A stretch of 64,000 nt of DNA. Source: Phycisphaerales bacterium (GTDB lineage Bacteria; Planctomycetota; Phycisphaerae; Sedimentisphaerales; Anaerobacaceae). Below are positions 14,414 through 20,439 of the stretch, in pieces (the first letter of the stretch is position 1; each line of letters begins with the position of its first letter). The position numbers were made by a program, and so were the translations under genes. The DNA lies in contig CP070678.1 in assembly GCA_020352515.1 (NCBI GenBank), forward strand, positions 5,215,705 through 5,279,704, in the 5' to 3' direction. The notes below the pieces were generated by a model. The model saw nothing but the letters and a program-made list of their open reading frames with translations, searched no databases and had not been told where the DNA came from.

Positions 14414-14464
14414 TTAAGCTCTTTCGATATCCTTGATTTACAATCGGAATTCGGCTGCAAACGA

Positions 14465-14908
14465 GAGCGGGTCGGGCGGTCGCCGGCTTGGAAATGAGCC
14501 GGAGGAAAGTCCGAGCAGGGCAGGGCACGGTGGTGGCTAACGGCCACCGGAGGCGACTCCCGGGAAAGTGCCACAGAAAACATACAGCCGATGGCCTCGA
14601 GGAATTGGGGCACAGGCAATGGTGAAATGGTGCGGCAAGAGCGCACCGCGGCGCCGGTGACGGCGACGGCACGGCAAACCCCACCGCCTGCAAGACCAAG
14701 CAGCCGGCCGGATTGCGCTCTGCGATTCGTCGCAGAACGGGTGTTCCGCACTCGGCCCGGGTGTGAGCGGCAGGTTGCTGCCGCCGGCCGGCGGGTAGGT
14801 CGCTTCCCGATAAACCGGGAGAGCCGGCCGGCAACGGCCGGTCAAGATAAATGATCGCCGCCCGTCACTACAGACGGGAGACAGAACTCGGCTTACAGAC
14901 CCGCCCTC
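14465..14908 (+). ncRNA. rnpB: RNase P RNA (bacterial type A)
   Basis: This is the catalytic RNA that trims the 5' leader of tRNA precursors. The ends pair as helix P1: GAGCGGGTC (14465-14473) with GACCCGCCCTC (14898-14908), with a two-base bulge. Conserved core elements are in order: GAGGAAAGTCCGAGC (near 14504) on the 5' side, the GGGAAAGTGCCACAGAAA segment (near 14561), and ACAGAACTCGGCTTACAG (near 14881) on the 3' side, which together form the P4 pseudoknot core. At about 444 nt it is rather long, with GC-rich extra helices in the 3' half. Confidence 0.95.
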
Positions 14909-14928
14909 TTTTGAGCCGCCGCCGGCCG

Positions 14929-15827: not shown

Positions 15828-16832
15828 TCAGACCTCTCTGGCCTTGATCCATTTCATCATCTTGCGGAGGCTCCTGCCGACGGTCTCGAGCTGGGACTCG
15901 TGGTCCTTGTCGTACAGCTCGTTGAACTTCTTGAGCCCGGAGCGGTACTCGGCGACCCATTCCTCGGCGAACCGGCCCGAGGTAATCTCCGCGAGAATCT
16001 TCTTCATCTCCGCCCTGGTCTGCTCGGTGATAATCCTTGGGCCGCGTGTAAGGTCGCCGTATTCGGCTGTGTTTGAGATGCTGTATCTCATGTAGCTCAT
16101 CCCGCCCTGGTACATCAGATCCACGATTAGCTTTACCTCATGGAGGCACTCGAAGTAGGCGATTTCCGGCTGATAGCCCGCTTCGACCAGCGTTTCGAAG
16201 CCGGCCTTGATAAGCGACGTCAAACCTCCGCAGAGAACGCACTGCTCCCCGAACAGGTCGGTCTCCGTCTCCTCTTTGTATGTCGTTTCGATTACTCCGG
16301 CCCTGGCGCCGCCGATGCCGTTGGCCCAGGCCAGCGCGATGGCCTTGGCCTGGCCCGTCGCATCCTGCTCGACGGCCACGAGGCTGGGCACGCCGCCGCC
16401 TTTTTCAAATTCGCTTCGAACAAGGTGACCGGGGCCCTTCGGCGCAATCATCACAACGTTAACGTCCTTGGGCGGCACGATGTACTTGAAGTGAATGTTG
16501 AAACCGTGACAGAAGCCGAGCGTCTGGCCCGCGGCAAGATTCGGCGCGATGTGATCCTTATAGACGGTCGCCTGAATCTCGTCCGGGATGGTCACGATGT
16601 TCAGGGCTGCGCCGTCCATGGCTGTCTTGATGTCCGTGGGGTTGAATCCGTGCCCGGTGGCGAGCTTGAAGTTCTCGGTGCCTTCGAGCTCGGCAACCGC
16701 AACCTGTATCCCGCTGTCGCGCAGGTTCAGGCTGTGAGCGTGGCCCTGGCTTCCATACCCTATGACCGCCACTTTCTTGCCCTTCAAAGCATCGATGGGA
16801 GCATCCTGTTCGTAATATATGTTCACTGCCAT
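15828..16832 (-). CDS. ilvC: Ketol-acid reductoisomerase
   Basis: IlvC converts 2-acetolactate or 2-aceto-2-hydroxybutyrate to the dihydroxy acids of valine and isoleucine synthesis, using NADPH and magnesium. From ATG 16832 (AAAGGAGAA 7 bases upstream) the product has 334 residues, the size of short class I enzymes. The Rossmann motif [17 protein letters not shown] begins at residue 25, followed by the [15 protein letters not shown] and [14 protein letters not shown] metal-site segments and the SNTAEYG C-terminal signature. It belongs to the ilvB-ilvN-deacetylase-ilvC cluster. Confidence 0.96.
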
Positions 16833-16849
16833 ATTCCGGTTCTCCTTTC

Positions 16850-17752
16850 TCAATCGGCCCTCAAGTCACGGTAACTTATCAGTTTTATCGCCCTTTTCTC
16901 AATAACTCGTTTTACCTTCTTACTTGTAAATGCCTTCGTGACGGCGTCACGGTCGGCCGCAACGTCCCAATATCCGGTATGCCCCATGGCCCTCATTTCC
17001 GGGCAGTCAAGGCCTGGATGCTCGACAATCAGCCACCTGCCCGGCCGAAGCTGCTGCAGCACCCTTACAAGAGAGGCCTCCTTCTCTTCGGCCGTACGCC
17101 CCGTAAAGCCCCTAACGTACTTTACGTCCGGCGGCACGCCGAGGGGCAGCTTGTACTCTTTGGAAAGCCTCTGCACCAGGGCCCTCAGCTCCGGTGTGCA
17201 GGTCGGTGTGCCCATGTGGGCGGTCAGGTGCGATACCTTTGGAAGCTTTTCGAGCGCCAGCTCGATCTGGGCCCGCAGTTCCTTCTCAACCTCCTGCAAT
17301 TCGTACCCGGCCTGCATAAAGCCGGTGCCGGGCGGGAAATCGGGCCTCTGGCTTGTCATGGGGTAGAAATGCCCCTGCTTGTCAACCAGGCTTGGCGCTT
17401 CGGTCAGGGGCCCCCACTTGTAGAATTCCCATTCACTGGTCAAAGTCAGATGCACTCCGACATCGATCCCGGGGTTGTCGCGGAGCATCTTTGCGGCTTC
17501 GTTGAACCACGGGGCCGGAACCATGACCTCGAGGCTGCGGACAATTCCCCGGCGGGCCGTATCAATGCAGGCGACGTTTGCGGCGTGACAGGAGCCGATG
17601 TCGTCGCCTCTTACGACGAGCTGTATCAGGCCGCCGGCCTTATCGCTCTGGGCATCTGCGCCGGCAAGGAGTCCGAGCAACAAGCCTGCCGCGACTACCA
17701 CGGCCGGGAAAAAAGAGACGATCCTTCTATTGTTCAAAACAGATATCTCCAT
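16850..17752 (-). CDS. ChbG/YdjC-type carbohydrate deacetylase-like secreted protein
   Basis: From ATG 17752 the product has 300 residues with an N-terminal signal peptide (hydrophobic [18 protein letters not shown], then ADAQS). The mature part shows YdjC/ChbG-family features: [16 protein letters not shown] with the metal-binding Asp pair, [12 protein letters not shown], and HLTAHMGT. The family removes acetyl groups from sugars such as chito-oligosaccharides. Exported members are less usual than cytoplasmic ones. It sits between ilvN and ilvC, 17 bases before ilvC, although no link to branched-chain amino acids is known. The ribosome site is weak. Confidence 0.8.
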
Positions 17753-17920
17753 CGAGCCTGCGGGCAAACACCAGAGGCGGCCCGCCATCCTCCGGTCGGC
17801 CAAAAGTCCGGCGGCCGACCGGTCGGCGAATTTCGGGTCACTAAATTATAGTGGAAGCGGCCGGTCAGGCAAGAAATTTACCGGTTGTACGTGTACGAGC
17901 GCCCCTCCAACCGGTCGAGT

Positions 17921-18409
17921 CTACGGCTCCACCCGGGCCTGTCTCGGCATTGCGATGGTTCCGGTCCTTGCCAGGCTCTTGATTCCGTAAGGGCGGCAGA
18001 CATTGATGAACGCCTCAATCTTGGATTCGGGTCCGCTGATTTCGAGCATGAGAGTCTTCGGGCCGATATCGACCACCTTGCCCCTGAAGATTTCTATCAG
18101 TGAGAATATCTCGGCCCTTTTCTCGGGGGGGGCCGAGATCGAGATGAGCATCAGGTCACGGGCGACCACCGGCTGGCCGACGAAATCCTGCACCTTTACA
18201 ACGGGGACAATCCTGGCCAGTTGCTTTCTGACCTGCTCGACGACCCTGTCGTCACCGATGACTACAATGGTCATCCGGCTCAACTGCGGCTCTTCCGTTC
18301 TGCCGACAACGAGTGAATCTATGTTAAAGGCCCTGGCGGCAAACATACCCGCGACATGGGCGAGAACGCCGGGCTTGTTTTCAACCAATGCGCTGATTAT
18401 GTGTTTCAT
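17921..18409 (-). CDS. ilvN: Acetolactate synthase small (regulatory) subunit
   Basis: IlvN/IlvH binds the catalytic subunit, raises its activity, and gives feedback inhibition by valine. The 162-residue product begins KHIISALVENKPGVLAHVAGMFAARAFNIDSL, the N-terminal ACT domain signature. It continues with the SRMTIVV strand and a second ACT-like domain (about 80-160). A GTG at 18421 is an alternative start. It lies 70 bases downstream of ilvB on the same strand, the usual order. Confidence 0.94.
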   Translation of the reverse strand: MKHIISALVENKPGVLAHVAGMFAARAFNIDSLVVGRTEEPQLSRMTIVVIGDDRVVEQVRKQLARIVPVVKVQDFVGQPVVARDLMLISISAPPEKRAEIFSLIEIFRGKVVDIGPKTLMLEISGPESKIEAFINVCRPYGIKSLARTGTIAMPRQARVEP

Positions 18410-18479
18410 CTGTTCTCTCACTTTCAGTTCATGCTCTTCGTTCGGTCCGGCTGCTGAATCGATTGGCGCTCAGCCCCGG

Positions 18480-20210
18480 TTATCCCATGCTCTCCAGGAT
18501 GTCAAGCCCGTCCATCTCACTGATGCTCTTGCCGGCGGGCACCATCGGCCAGACATTCTCCTCCCTGTCGATGCGGAAGTCAACAACGCACGGCTTCTTT
18601 TCAGCGAGCATTTTCTCCACGCCCTTGGAGACATCCTCTTTTTTGTCGACCGTGAGCCCTACCGCACCGAGAGCCCGAGCAAGCACGGCGTAGTCCGGAT
18701 TCTTCAGATAGCTCTTGGAATAGCGTTTTCCGTAGAAGAGCTCCTGCCACTGGCGGACCATCCCCATGTAGCCGTTGTTCAATATGCAGACCTTTATGGG
18801 CAGCTTGTGCTCAACGGCGGTGGCCAGCTCAGTCATAGTCATGTTGAAGCTGTGGTCGCCGTCTATGTCGATTACCATCTCGTCGGGTCTGGCAATCTGT
18901 GCGCCAATCGCGGCGGGCAGCCCGAAACCCATCGTTCCGAGCCCGCCCGAGCTTATGAGCTGCCTCGGCCGGTTGAACTTGTAGAACTGGGCGGCCCACA
19001 TCTGGTTCTGGCCCACGCCGGTTGTTATTATCGCATCGCCCGCCGTCTGGCGCCATATCTCGCTTATTACGTACTGCGGCTTGATCCCGGGAGATTTCTG
19101 CTCGTAGCGGAACGGGAACTTCTCTTTCCACTCGGCGATCTTATCGAACCATTCTTTTCTCTGGCGGTACTCTGTCTGTTTGGCCAGCTCGGTTAGAATT
19201 ATTTTCGCATCGCCGACGACCGGTATATCCACCCCGACGTTCTTGGATATGCTGGCCGGGTCAATGTCGATGTGCACTATTCTTGCATTGGGGGCAAAAG
19301 TTGTGACCTTGCCGGTGACCCTGTCGTCGAATCGGGCGCCGACGGCGATCAGCAGATCGCACTCCTGGACGGCGTAATTGGCGTAGGCCGAGCCGTGCAT
19401 TCCCAGCATGTCGAGCGACTCGGCTCTTGTTTGGTCGTAACTGCCCAGCCCCAGCAGCGTCATGGTGACGGGCAGGTGGGCTGTTTCGGCCAGGGCCCTC
19501 AATTCCTCGCTCGCGTTGGCGGCAATAACACCGCCACCGACGTAAAGGACCGGCCGGTCGGACTTGTTTATCGCCCTGGCCGCCGTCGATATCTGCCTGG
19601 CGTGTCCCTTTGTGCGAATTCGGTAACCGGGCAGGCTCATCTTCACGGGGCCCTCGACTGTGTGCCCGGTTACGGCAACGTCGACCGGAACATCTATCAG
19701 AACCGGGCCAGGCCTTCCGGTGGAGGCAATATAGAATGCCTCACGGATCGTGCGGGCCAGGTCGCGGACGTCTTTTACGATGCAGTTGTATTTCGTGACC
19801 GGGCGTGTGATGCCTGTCGTATCGGCTTCCTGGAAGGCGTCATTTCCGATAAGCTCAGTTCGAACCTGTCCGGTCAGGGCGACCAGCGGGACCGAATCCA
19901 TCATCGCATTTGCAAGCCCGGTCACGAGGTTGCAGGCCCCGGGGCCGCTGGTTGCGACCACAACGCCGACTTTGCCGCTTGCGCGGGCGTAGGCGTCGGC
20001 CATGTGGCAGCCGCCCTGCTCGTGACGGGGGACTATGAAGTTGATGGGCGCATCATATAACCTGTCAAACAAGGGCAGCACGACGCCGCCGGTGTAGCCG
20101 AACATGGTATCGACCCCCTGGGCGATGAGCTCGTCAACGATGATTTGGGCGCCAGTTTTGACTGCGGATTGACCGGCCGAATCAGCCGGGGCGGCGGAGG
20201 GAGACTTCAT
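18480..20210 (-). CDS. ilvB: Acetolactate synthase large (catalytic) subunit
   Basis: IlvB is the ThDP- and FAD-containing enzyme that condenses pyruvate with pyruvate or 2-oxobutyrate, the first common step of valine, leucine and isoleucine synthesis. The 576-residue product has RHEQGG with the ThDP-activating Glu64, the central GARFDDRVTGK FAD/NADP-like domain motif, and the C-terminal ThDP motif DIDGDHSFNMT...ILNN. ATG start with GGAAAGGAAC upstream. It is first in the operon, behind a consensus promoter (20410-20439) and a structured leader of about 190 bases. Confidence 0.96.
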   Translation of the reverse strand: MKSPSAAPADSAGQSAVKTGAQIIVDELIAQGVDTMFGYTGGVVLPLFDRLYDAPINFIVPRHEQGGCHMADAYARASGKVGVVVATSGPGACNLVTGLANAMMDSVPLVALTGQVRTELIGNDAFQEADTTGITRPVTKYNCIVKDVRDLARTIREAFYIASTGRPGPVLIDVPVDVAVTGHTVEGPVKMSLPGYRIRTKGHARQISTAARAINKSDRPVLYVGGGVIAANASEELRALAETAHLPVTMTLLGLGSYDQTRAESLDMLGMHGSAYANYAVQECDLLIAVGARFDDRVTGKVTTFAPNARIVHIDIDPASISKNVGVDIPVVGDAKIILTELAKQTEYRQRKEWFDKIAEWKEKFPFRYEQKSPGIKPQYVISEIWRQTAGDAIITTGVGQNQMWAAQFYKFNRPRQLISSGGLGTMGFGLPAAIGAQIARPDEMVIDIDGDHSFNMTMTELATAVEHKLPIKVCILNNGYMGMVRQWQELFYGKRYSKSYLKNPDYAVLARALGAVGLTVDKKEDVSKGVEKMLAEKKPCVVDFRIDREENVWPMVPAGKSISEMDGLDILESMG

Positions 20211-20404
20211 CTGCCTGTTCCTTTCCTGATAAACAGAATAACGTCATTCCGGTCAATTATGGCCACGTTGGGCCGTCCGGGAGTTCAATCGCTCCGCTAA
20301 AGGAGGCGACCAAAGGTCCCGAATTTCTTGGCCCCGCCATAATCCCGTAACCACGGCCCAAGCCGTGTCTCAGGTTCGTACTTGGGTGTTTTCACCCAAG
20401 TACG
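20211..20404 (-). promoter_or_regulatory. Structured 5' leader of the ilv operon (candidate attenuator or regulatory RNA)
   Basis: The predicted ilvB transcript starts near 20403 and begins with a perfect 12-bp hairpin, CGTACTTGGGTG-AAAA-CACCCAAGTACG (20404-20377). Further hairpins follow: CACGGC/GCCGTG (20367-20352), GACC/GGTC (20318-20308) and CTCC/GGAG (20305-20292). The 9-mers CGGGATTAT (20406-20414) and ATAATCCCG (20339-20347) are also complementary. No T-box box (GGTGGNACC-like) and no leader peptide rich in Ile/Val/Leu codons was found. A 27-codon frame starting at 20340 is not convincing. Confidence 0.55.
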
Positions 20405-20409
20405 CCGGG

Positions 20410-20439
20410 ATTATACTGTGACAATCCCGTTTCTGTCAA
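20410..20439 (-). promoter_or_regulatory. Consensus sigma-70 promoter of the ilv operon
   Basis: On the minus strand TTGACA (20439-20434), an 18-base spacer and TATAAT (20415-20410) are perfect consensus hexamers. A 7-bp inverted repeat, CGGGATT (20406-20412) with AATCCCG (20423-20429), overlaps the -10 box and could be an operator. Confidence 0.85.

Follow-up and report, generated by a model that had tools for sequence, protein, structure and literature searches.

The window analysed here is the whole 64,000-nt stretch of contig CP070678.1 from a Phycisphaerales bacterium. On its minus strand lies a cluster for branched-chain amino acid synthesis in the order ilvB, ilvN, YdjC-like gene, ilvC:

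18480..20210, minus strand: ilvB, acetolactate synthase large subunit (TIGR00118, 832.6 bits; ATG at 20210)
17921..18421, minus strand: ilvN, acetolactate synthase small subunit (TIGR00119, 212 bits)
16850..17803, minus strand: YdjC-like deacetylase gene between ilvN and ilvC (PF04794, 160.3 bits)
15828..16853, minus strand: ilvC, ketol-acid reductoisomerase (NF004017, 526.2 bits; TIGR00465, 437.2 bits)

A bacterial class A RNase P RNA (14464-14911, plus strand) is found near the ilvC end of the cluster, and a small NifU-domain protein (PF01106; 20583-20852, plus strand) is encoded divergently from ilvB. By eye, a NifU-like neighbour also stands beside a second leader copy, L133.

From the letters alone, an earlier sequence-only reading had proposed that a TTGACA-18-TATAAT promoter precedes ilvB and starts a leader of about 190 nt, whose first element is a 12-bp hairpin, perfectly paired and capped by an AAAA loop. 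Each of these proposals held up. The promoter has 12/12 consensus bases and recurs in relatives: a site with at least 10/12 consensus bases was present in 71/89 homologous upstream stretches, compared with 2/89 shuffled stretches. In 39 of the 89, the −10 box ends 32-34 nt 5′ of the extracted leader body; in that body, three bases stand before CCUGA. Measured from the predicted transcription start to the ilvB ATG at 20210, the leader spans about 193 nt of the minus strand, and the perfect hairpin occupies 20404-20377. The leader has a folding energy of −82.7 kcal/mol (z = −5.7), which none of 200 dinucleotide shuffles equalled. Its parts, with pairing in P1 given for the alignment of 38 leaders (A1) described below, are:

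20410..20439, minus strand: sigma-70-type promoter, 12/12 consensus bases (TTGACA 20439-20434, 18-nt spacer, TATAAT 20415-20410), recurring before homologous leaders
20377..20404, minus strand: P0, 5′-terminal 12-bp hairpin with AAAA loop, perfectly paired; predicted transcription start about 20403
20370..20374, minus strand: P1 5′ strand, CCUGA (100% paired in 38/38 A1 leaders)
20352..20367, minus strand: P2 hairpin, CACGGC-UUGG-GCCGUG (6/6 pairs double-changed, 93.3% paired)
20348..20351, minus strand: joining segment GUUA, P2 to P3a (conserved alignment columns 48-51)
20250..20347, minus strand: P3 arm, comprising P3a, P3, P4, P5 and P6
20347-20345/20252-20250, minus strand: P3a (2/3 pairs double-changed)
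20343-20336/20263-20256, minus strand: P3 (8/8 pairs double-changed)
20334-20332/20272-20270, minus strand: P4 (weak, 72.2% paired)
20323-20319/20280-20276, minus strand: P5 (4/5 pairs double-changed)
20311-20302/20296-20287, minus strand: P6 (8/10 pairs double-changed)
20246..20249, minus strand: joining segment GAAU, P3a to P7 (conserved alignment columns 218-221)
20232..20245, minus strand: P7, GACG/UGUU hairpin directly 5′ of the P1 3′ strand (weak in the window, with two G-U pairs)
20225..20229, minus strand: P1 3′ strand, UCAGG, the beginning of the purine-rich ribosome-binding region UCAGGAAAGG
20220..20224, minus strand: AAAGG, the remainder of the putative Shine-Dalgarno region as judged from sequence, 9 nt 5′ of the ATG and common among the aligned leaders

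Covariation and architecture of the leader

Thirty-eight leaders, chosen from 45 candidates, were aligned without structural guidance (A1). We left out L085, L110, L112, L113, L140, L143 and L148, which are incomplete, degenerate or very long, and used the window instead of its identical copy L084. RNAalifold predicted 31 pairs on A1, and in 24 of these both partners vary. For the 44-pair structure, 89.1% of the cells in A1 were standard-paired, compared with 35.1-48.1% in a control that shifted the 3′ partners along by 1-3 columns and so left relatedness intact. The covariation score was 0.448 (0.116-0.163 for slid partners; 0/500 shuffles as high), and double-changed cells numbered 210 against a shuffled mean of 68.3, most of them in P2, P3 and P6. 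Covariation in relatives, whose absence had been named beforehand as grounds for giving up the proposal, is therefore present, and in having a conserved, covarying fold in a 5′ leader the element is aptamer-like.

P1 paired in all 38 A1 leaders, and the variation there was G-U alone. In a larger set, whose alignment was fitted to the model, L197 and L203 carry an A-U to U-A double change; two further P1 double changes, in the degenerate leaders L110 and L204, probably reflect misalignment. Because P1 is nearly invariant, its support comes mostly from conservation, together with these two double changes.

P7 and a GUUA:UAAC pairing compete on paper. The P7 closing pair, N225:N288, was standard in 45/55 leaders with short linkers (2000 shuffles: mean 34.6, maximum 45) and in 51/78 of all usable rows, which is not beyond chance (shuffle mean 42.8, maximum 54); nine of the 87 rows were not usable. 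Cruder anchoring gave 38/67, with 25.8 expected. Extension of P3a by GUUA:UAAC showed neither covariation nor a pairing excess, had near-zero probability in silico, and was rejected; P7 is the better supported of the two. In 63/78 distinct leaders, with quite different sequences, the P0 hairpin folded more stably than 95 or more of its 100 shuffles, once nine partial, degenerate or doubtful rows, identical rows and rows with N had been left out.

The sequence-only reading had also proposed at least three more hairpins and an alternative long-range pairing. Hairpins and long-range pairing are both present; the structure that covaries, however, is a multi-helix junction and not a row of hairpins. 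Comparison of the leaders shows, as a predicted fold, P0 followed by a four-way junction of P1, P2, the P3a-P6 arm and P7, connected by bases that hardly vary.

None of the 4227 families of Rfam 15 reached its gathering score in the window leader or in 20 relatives. When the leader was compared with Rfam at E ≤ 10, nothing relevant appeared: the hits, SAM-Chlorobi from the opposite strand and a snoRNA, fell short of threshold by a wide margin. A match to a known motif, the other outcome that had been named as counting against novelty, was thus not seen in Rfam 15. TPP, ppGpp and other Rfam families were set aside as candidates, as none gave a relevant match in the leader at E ≤ 10 or a match in the 20 relatives. 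Full-text literature searches on riboswitches of planctomycetes, Phycisphaerae and Sedimentisphaera returned nothing on ilvB, an absence that we claim for these searches only. Terms for Planctomycetota gave no hit in PMC10272879, PMC8632094 or PMC11109978, and PMC2864571 names Planctomycetes once, for another motif.

The RNA family is strongly supported as structured and outside Rfam 15. With covarying helices and no Rfam 15 match, there is good support for the suggestion that this is a regulatory RNA so far undescribed in the group, and from its sequence the leader is almost certainly a structured cis-regulatory RNA.

Distribution of the leader and the frames downstream of it

A DNA search found similar leaders in 16 of 61 genomes (the window's own and relatives), and an ilvB protein was found at E ≤ 1e-150 in 54 of the 61. 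In many more relatives, the upstream stretches proved on reading to carry the same element in a form too divergent for the DNA search to pick up. R1, a covariance model trained on the 38 leaders, matched 72/397 genomes of the class at E ≤ 0.01, every match lying within the window's order, Sedimentisphaerales, and 8/392 genomes in a phylum-wide draw, again all within Sedimentisphaerales; the two draws overlap, and their stricter filters may have missed weak matches. Homologous leaders before ilvB span genera and families of the order. At least 20 genomes of the order gave no R1 match, including all seven listed from family f5.

Applied to the window and 96 loci, 97 sources in all, R1 gave 89 matches, corresponding to 88 distinct rows, and the eight sources that lacked a match are f5-type loci. 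These loci (L007, L008, L009 and L218-L222) have a different conserved ilvB leader that R1 does not recognise; its 5′ side carries GGGACC, and roughly AUCGAUGGCNNAUGUAAGAAGGAGCC precedes the ATG. One of them, L009, had no Rfam match at E ≤ 5 save a truncated chance hit.

In 80 of the 89 matches, ilvB lies within 1,400 nt downstream. Seven of the other nine are short stretches that had been fetched as ilvB-upstream sequence. The remaining two are L181 (L181:1650-2560), where the leader is followed by a degenerate short frame with no ilvB in the next 900 nt, and L212, which at 22.9 bits and with no ilvB is probably a false match and was rejected as a family member. As a rule there is one leader per genome, and ilvB is the sole target seen, so spread to other pathway genes was dropped as a possibility. 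Second sites occur in G000 and G001 and, as a weak match, in G397. The second copies in the first two genomes (G000:C1:2120569-2120916, L133; G001:C1:767479-767674, L134) adjoin N runs and a broken ilvB, and the one in G000 has similar neighbours. This suggests that they belong to relatives' contigs binned or scaffolded into mixed or mis-scaffolded assemblies.

Of the 79 loci where a full ilvB is visible, 22 have something between it and the leader. In 14 this is a separate short frame (assigned by a script rule, which in L167 and L172 picked a frame other than the IlvB-like one) and in six an in-frame N-terminal extension, while two show no start. About a dozen of these resemble the IlvB N-terminus by tblastn or by eye, and one 93-aa example matches TPP_enzyme_N at 28.5 bits (cut-off 26.8). 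The individual cases are:

L094, L097, L167, L172, L176, L177, L179, L185, L193, L208, L214: truncated N-terminal IlvB-like frame, separate or fused, before full ilvB
L178, L216, L189, L203: short frame without clear IlvB similarity between leader and ilvB

Some genomes (G031) have tandem ilvB copies with the leader before the more divergent copy, and in L173 an ilvB N-terminus is fused to an ilvB C-terminus. A plausible origin for the truncated frames is that ilvB was duplicated in tandem and the copy next to the leader then decayed until only its first codons were left.

Mode of control and candidate effectors

The sequence-only reading had reported no T-box, no U-rich terminator and no leader peptide with Ile/Leu/Val runs, and these absences stand. 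On the minus strand the window leader contains no intrinsic terminator, and across 89 leaders we found no short frame with regulatory codons that is conserved. A T-box was rejected, with no Rfam match in the window, in the leader at E ≤ 10 or in the 20 relatives. Since P1 runs into the ribosome-binding site, and neither a terminator nor a conserved leader peptide is present, control is most likely translational. When the junction is closed, P1 (CCUGA:UCAGG) would occupy the first part of the ribosome-binding region and keep ilvB translation low; when it opens, ribosomes would enter ilvB. In L168, L174 and L178, UCAGGAG stands beside P1, and its Shine-Dalgarno-like AGGAG overlaps the P1 strand. 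We consider it probable that control acts through P1 and the ribosome-binding site. In the 22 of 79 loci with an intervening frame, extension or gap, direct masking of the ilvB site is impossible without coupling.

Folded alone, the leader bodies formed P1 with a median probability of 0.88 (above 0.5 in 32/38). Extending the in silico folds by P0 and 45 coding nucleotides brought the median down to 0.09 (above 0.5 in 11/37), and a shuffled 45-nt tail brought it to 0.04 (7/37). Because a shuffled tail lowers P1 equally, the effect is unspecific and P1 is not robust by energy alone; for the same reason, we rejected a conserved base-pairing interaction between P1 and the start of the coding sequence. 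With flanks of 29 nt on the upstream and 40 nt on the downstream side, the leaders of the 89-match alignment gave P1 a median of 0.03, and the window leader with 40 nt of coding sequence adopted a different folding minimum. As modelled, then, folding energies would neither prove nor exclude a switch. In many of the longer folds, CCUGA pairs with bases after P2 that otherwise form P3a, a possible alternative state of the model that has no independent covariation. Degenerate leaders, L110, L204 and L113 among them, have lost P1 and other 5′ parts and kept the arm, as has L137 by eye; leaders without P0, P1 or P2 in some genera are expected if regulation was lost there.

As for what the leader senses, our best guess at a ligand is a metabolite of the branched-chain pathway. 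That the effector is a small molecule at all we regard as evenly balanced, and that it is a branched-chain amino acid or its precursor we propose only tentatively. Slightly more doubtful still is the full proposal of a new Sedimentisphaerales riboswitch class, in which valine, leucine, isoleucine or a keto-acid precursor would bind at the four-way junction and repress translation of acetolactate synthase; we know of no validated riboswitch for valine, leucine or isoleucine. A single site per genome, always at ilvB, fits a single-target metabolite riboswitch or a protein that binds its own message. The main rival is protein autoregulation, in which IlvB, IlvN or a dedicated RNA-binding protein would bind the leader and block ilvB translation, in an autogenous or other circuit. 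The usual single copy, the sole target and the narrow distribution would all suit such control, whereas complex junctions with conserved joining bases are more typical of aptamers, and we rate the protein reading as rather unlikely.

The sequence-only reading had also offered a 5′ hairpin that stabilises the mRNA. P0 may well do so: it lies at the predicted first nucleotides, and the hairpin is kept while its sequence varies in the 63/78 leaders noted above. Conservation of the junction helices, the joining bases and the pairing of P1 with the ribosome-binding site nevertheless extends far beyond a 5′ hairpin and a stabiliser's needs, which makes stabilisation unlikely as the whole story. We therefore think it improbable that P0 and a compact fold constitute a constitutive element that stabilises the mRNA or insulates translation initiation and senses nothing. 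Attenuation by a leader peptide (uORF), as for ilvB-II of Corynebacterium, has precedent in that several ilvB motifs, once riboswitch candidates, were re-examined as uORFs, according to the excerpt of PMC10272879. Here the P0 loop carries NUGAAAA, a possible frame start, in 25/89 leaders; the start is absent from the loops of the others, however, and the frames run for 4-63 codons with scattered ends. Stretches rich in Ile, Leu or Val are likewise scattered through the leaders rather than gathered at one place, and with no terminator in the window leader attenuation seems very improbable. Slighter yet is the chance that a divergent, T-box-like element senses tRNA here: T-boxes are common regulators of branched-chain genes, but the searches described above found no T-box match. 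Taken as a whole, the explanation that we favour, an order-specific, cis-acting ilvB leader RNA with a four-way junction and P1-gated translation, is one that the sequence comparisons lead us to believe and to doubt in equal measure.

The leader RNA stands before the committed step of branched-chain amino acid synthesis, in a phylum in which, to our knowledge, there has been little work on RNA regulation. With a metabolite as its partner, the RNA would explain acetolactate synthase feedback in these bacteria and might extend the range of ligand classes; with a protein, it would represent a new autogenous circuit.

Relation to known systems

RNA motifs published before ilvB are ilvB-OMG, ilvB (Leptospira) and ilvB-II (Corynebacterium), of which ilvB-II has proved to be a uORF attenuator (excerpts of PMC10272879, PMC8632094 and PMC11109978). 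As described there, these motifs (the Leptospira one is also WRC-14-1) resemble the present RNA in being conserved, directly before ilvB and mostly confined to narrow lineages. They are set apart from it by lineage, and no Rfam model of an ilvB motif matched the leader. Unlike ilvB-II, our RNA lacks a conserved uORF; it has covarying four-way-junction helices. The ppGpp riboswitch, which controls branched-chain genes in Firmicutes (excerpt of PMC10272879), shares the target pathway and differs in phylum and in having no Rfam match here. The T-box shares the role of branched-chain gene regulator and likewise has no Rfam match here. In form the leader resembles translational riboswitches that mask the Shine-Dalgarno sequence, which also have a multi-helix junction, conserved joining bases and a closing stem overlapping the ribosome-binding region; in contrast to the known ones, the leader matches no Rfam riboswitch family, and its dependence on a ligand is our conjecture.
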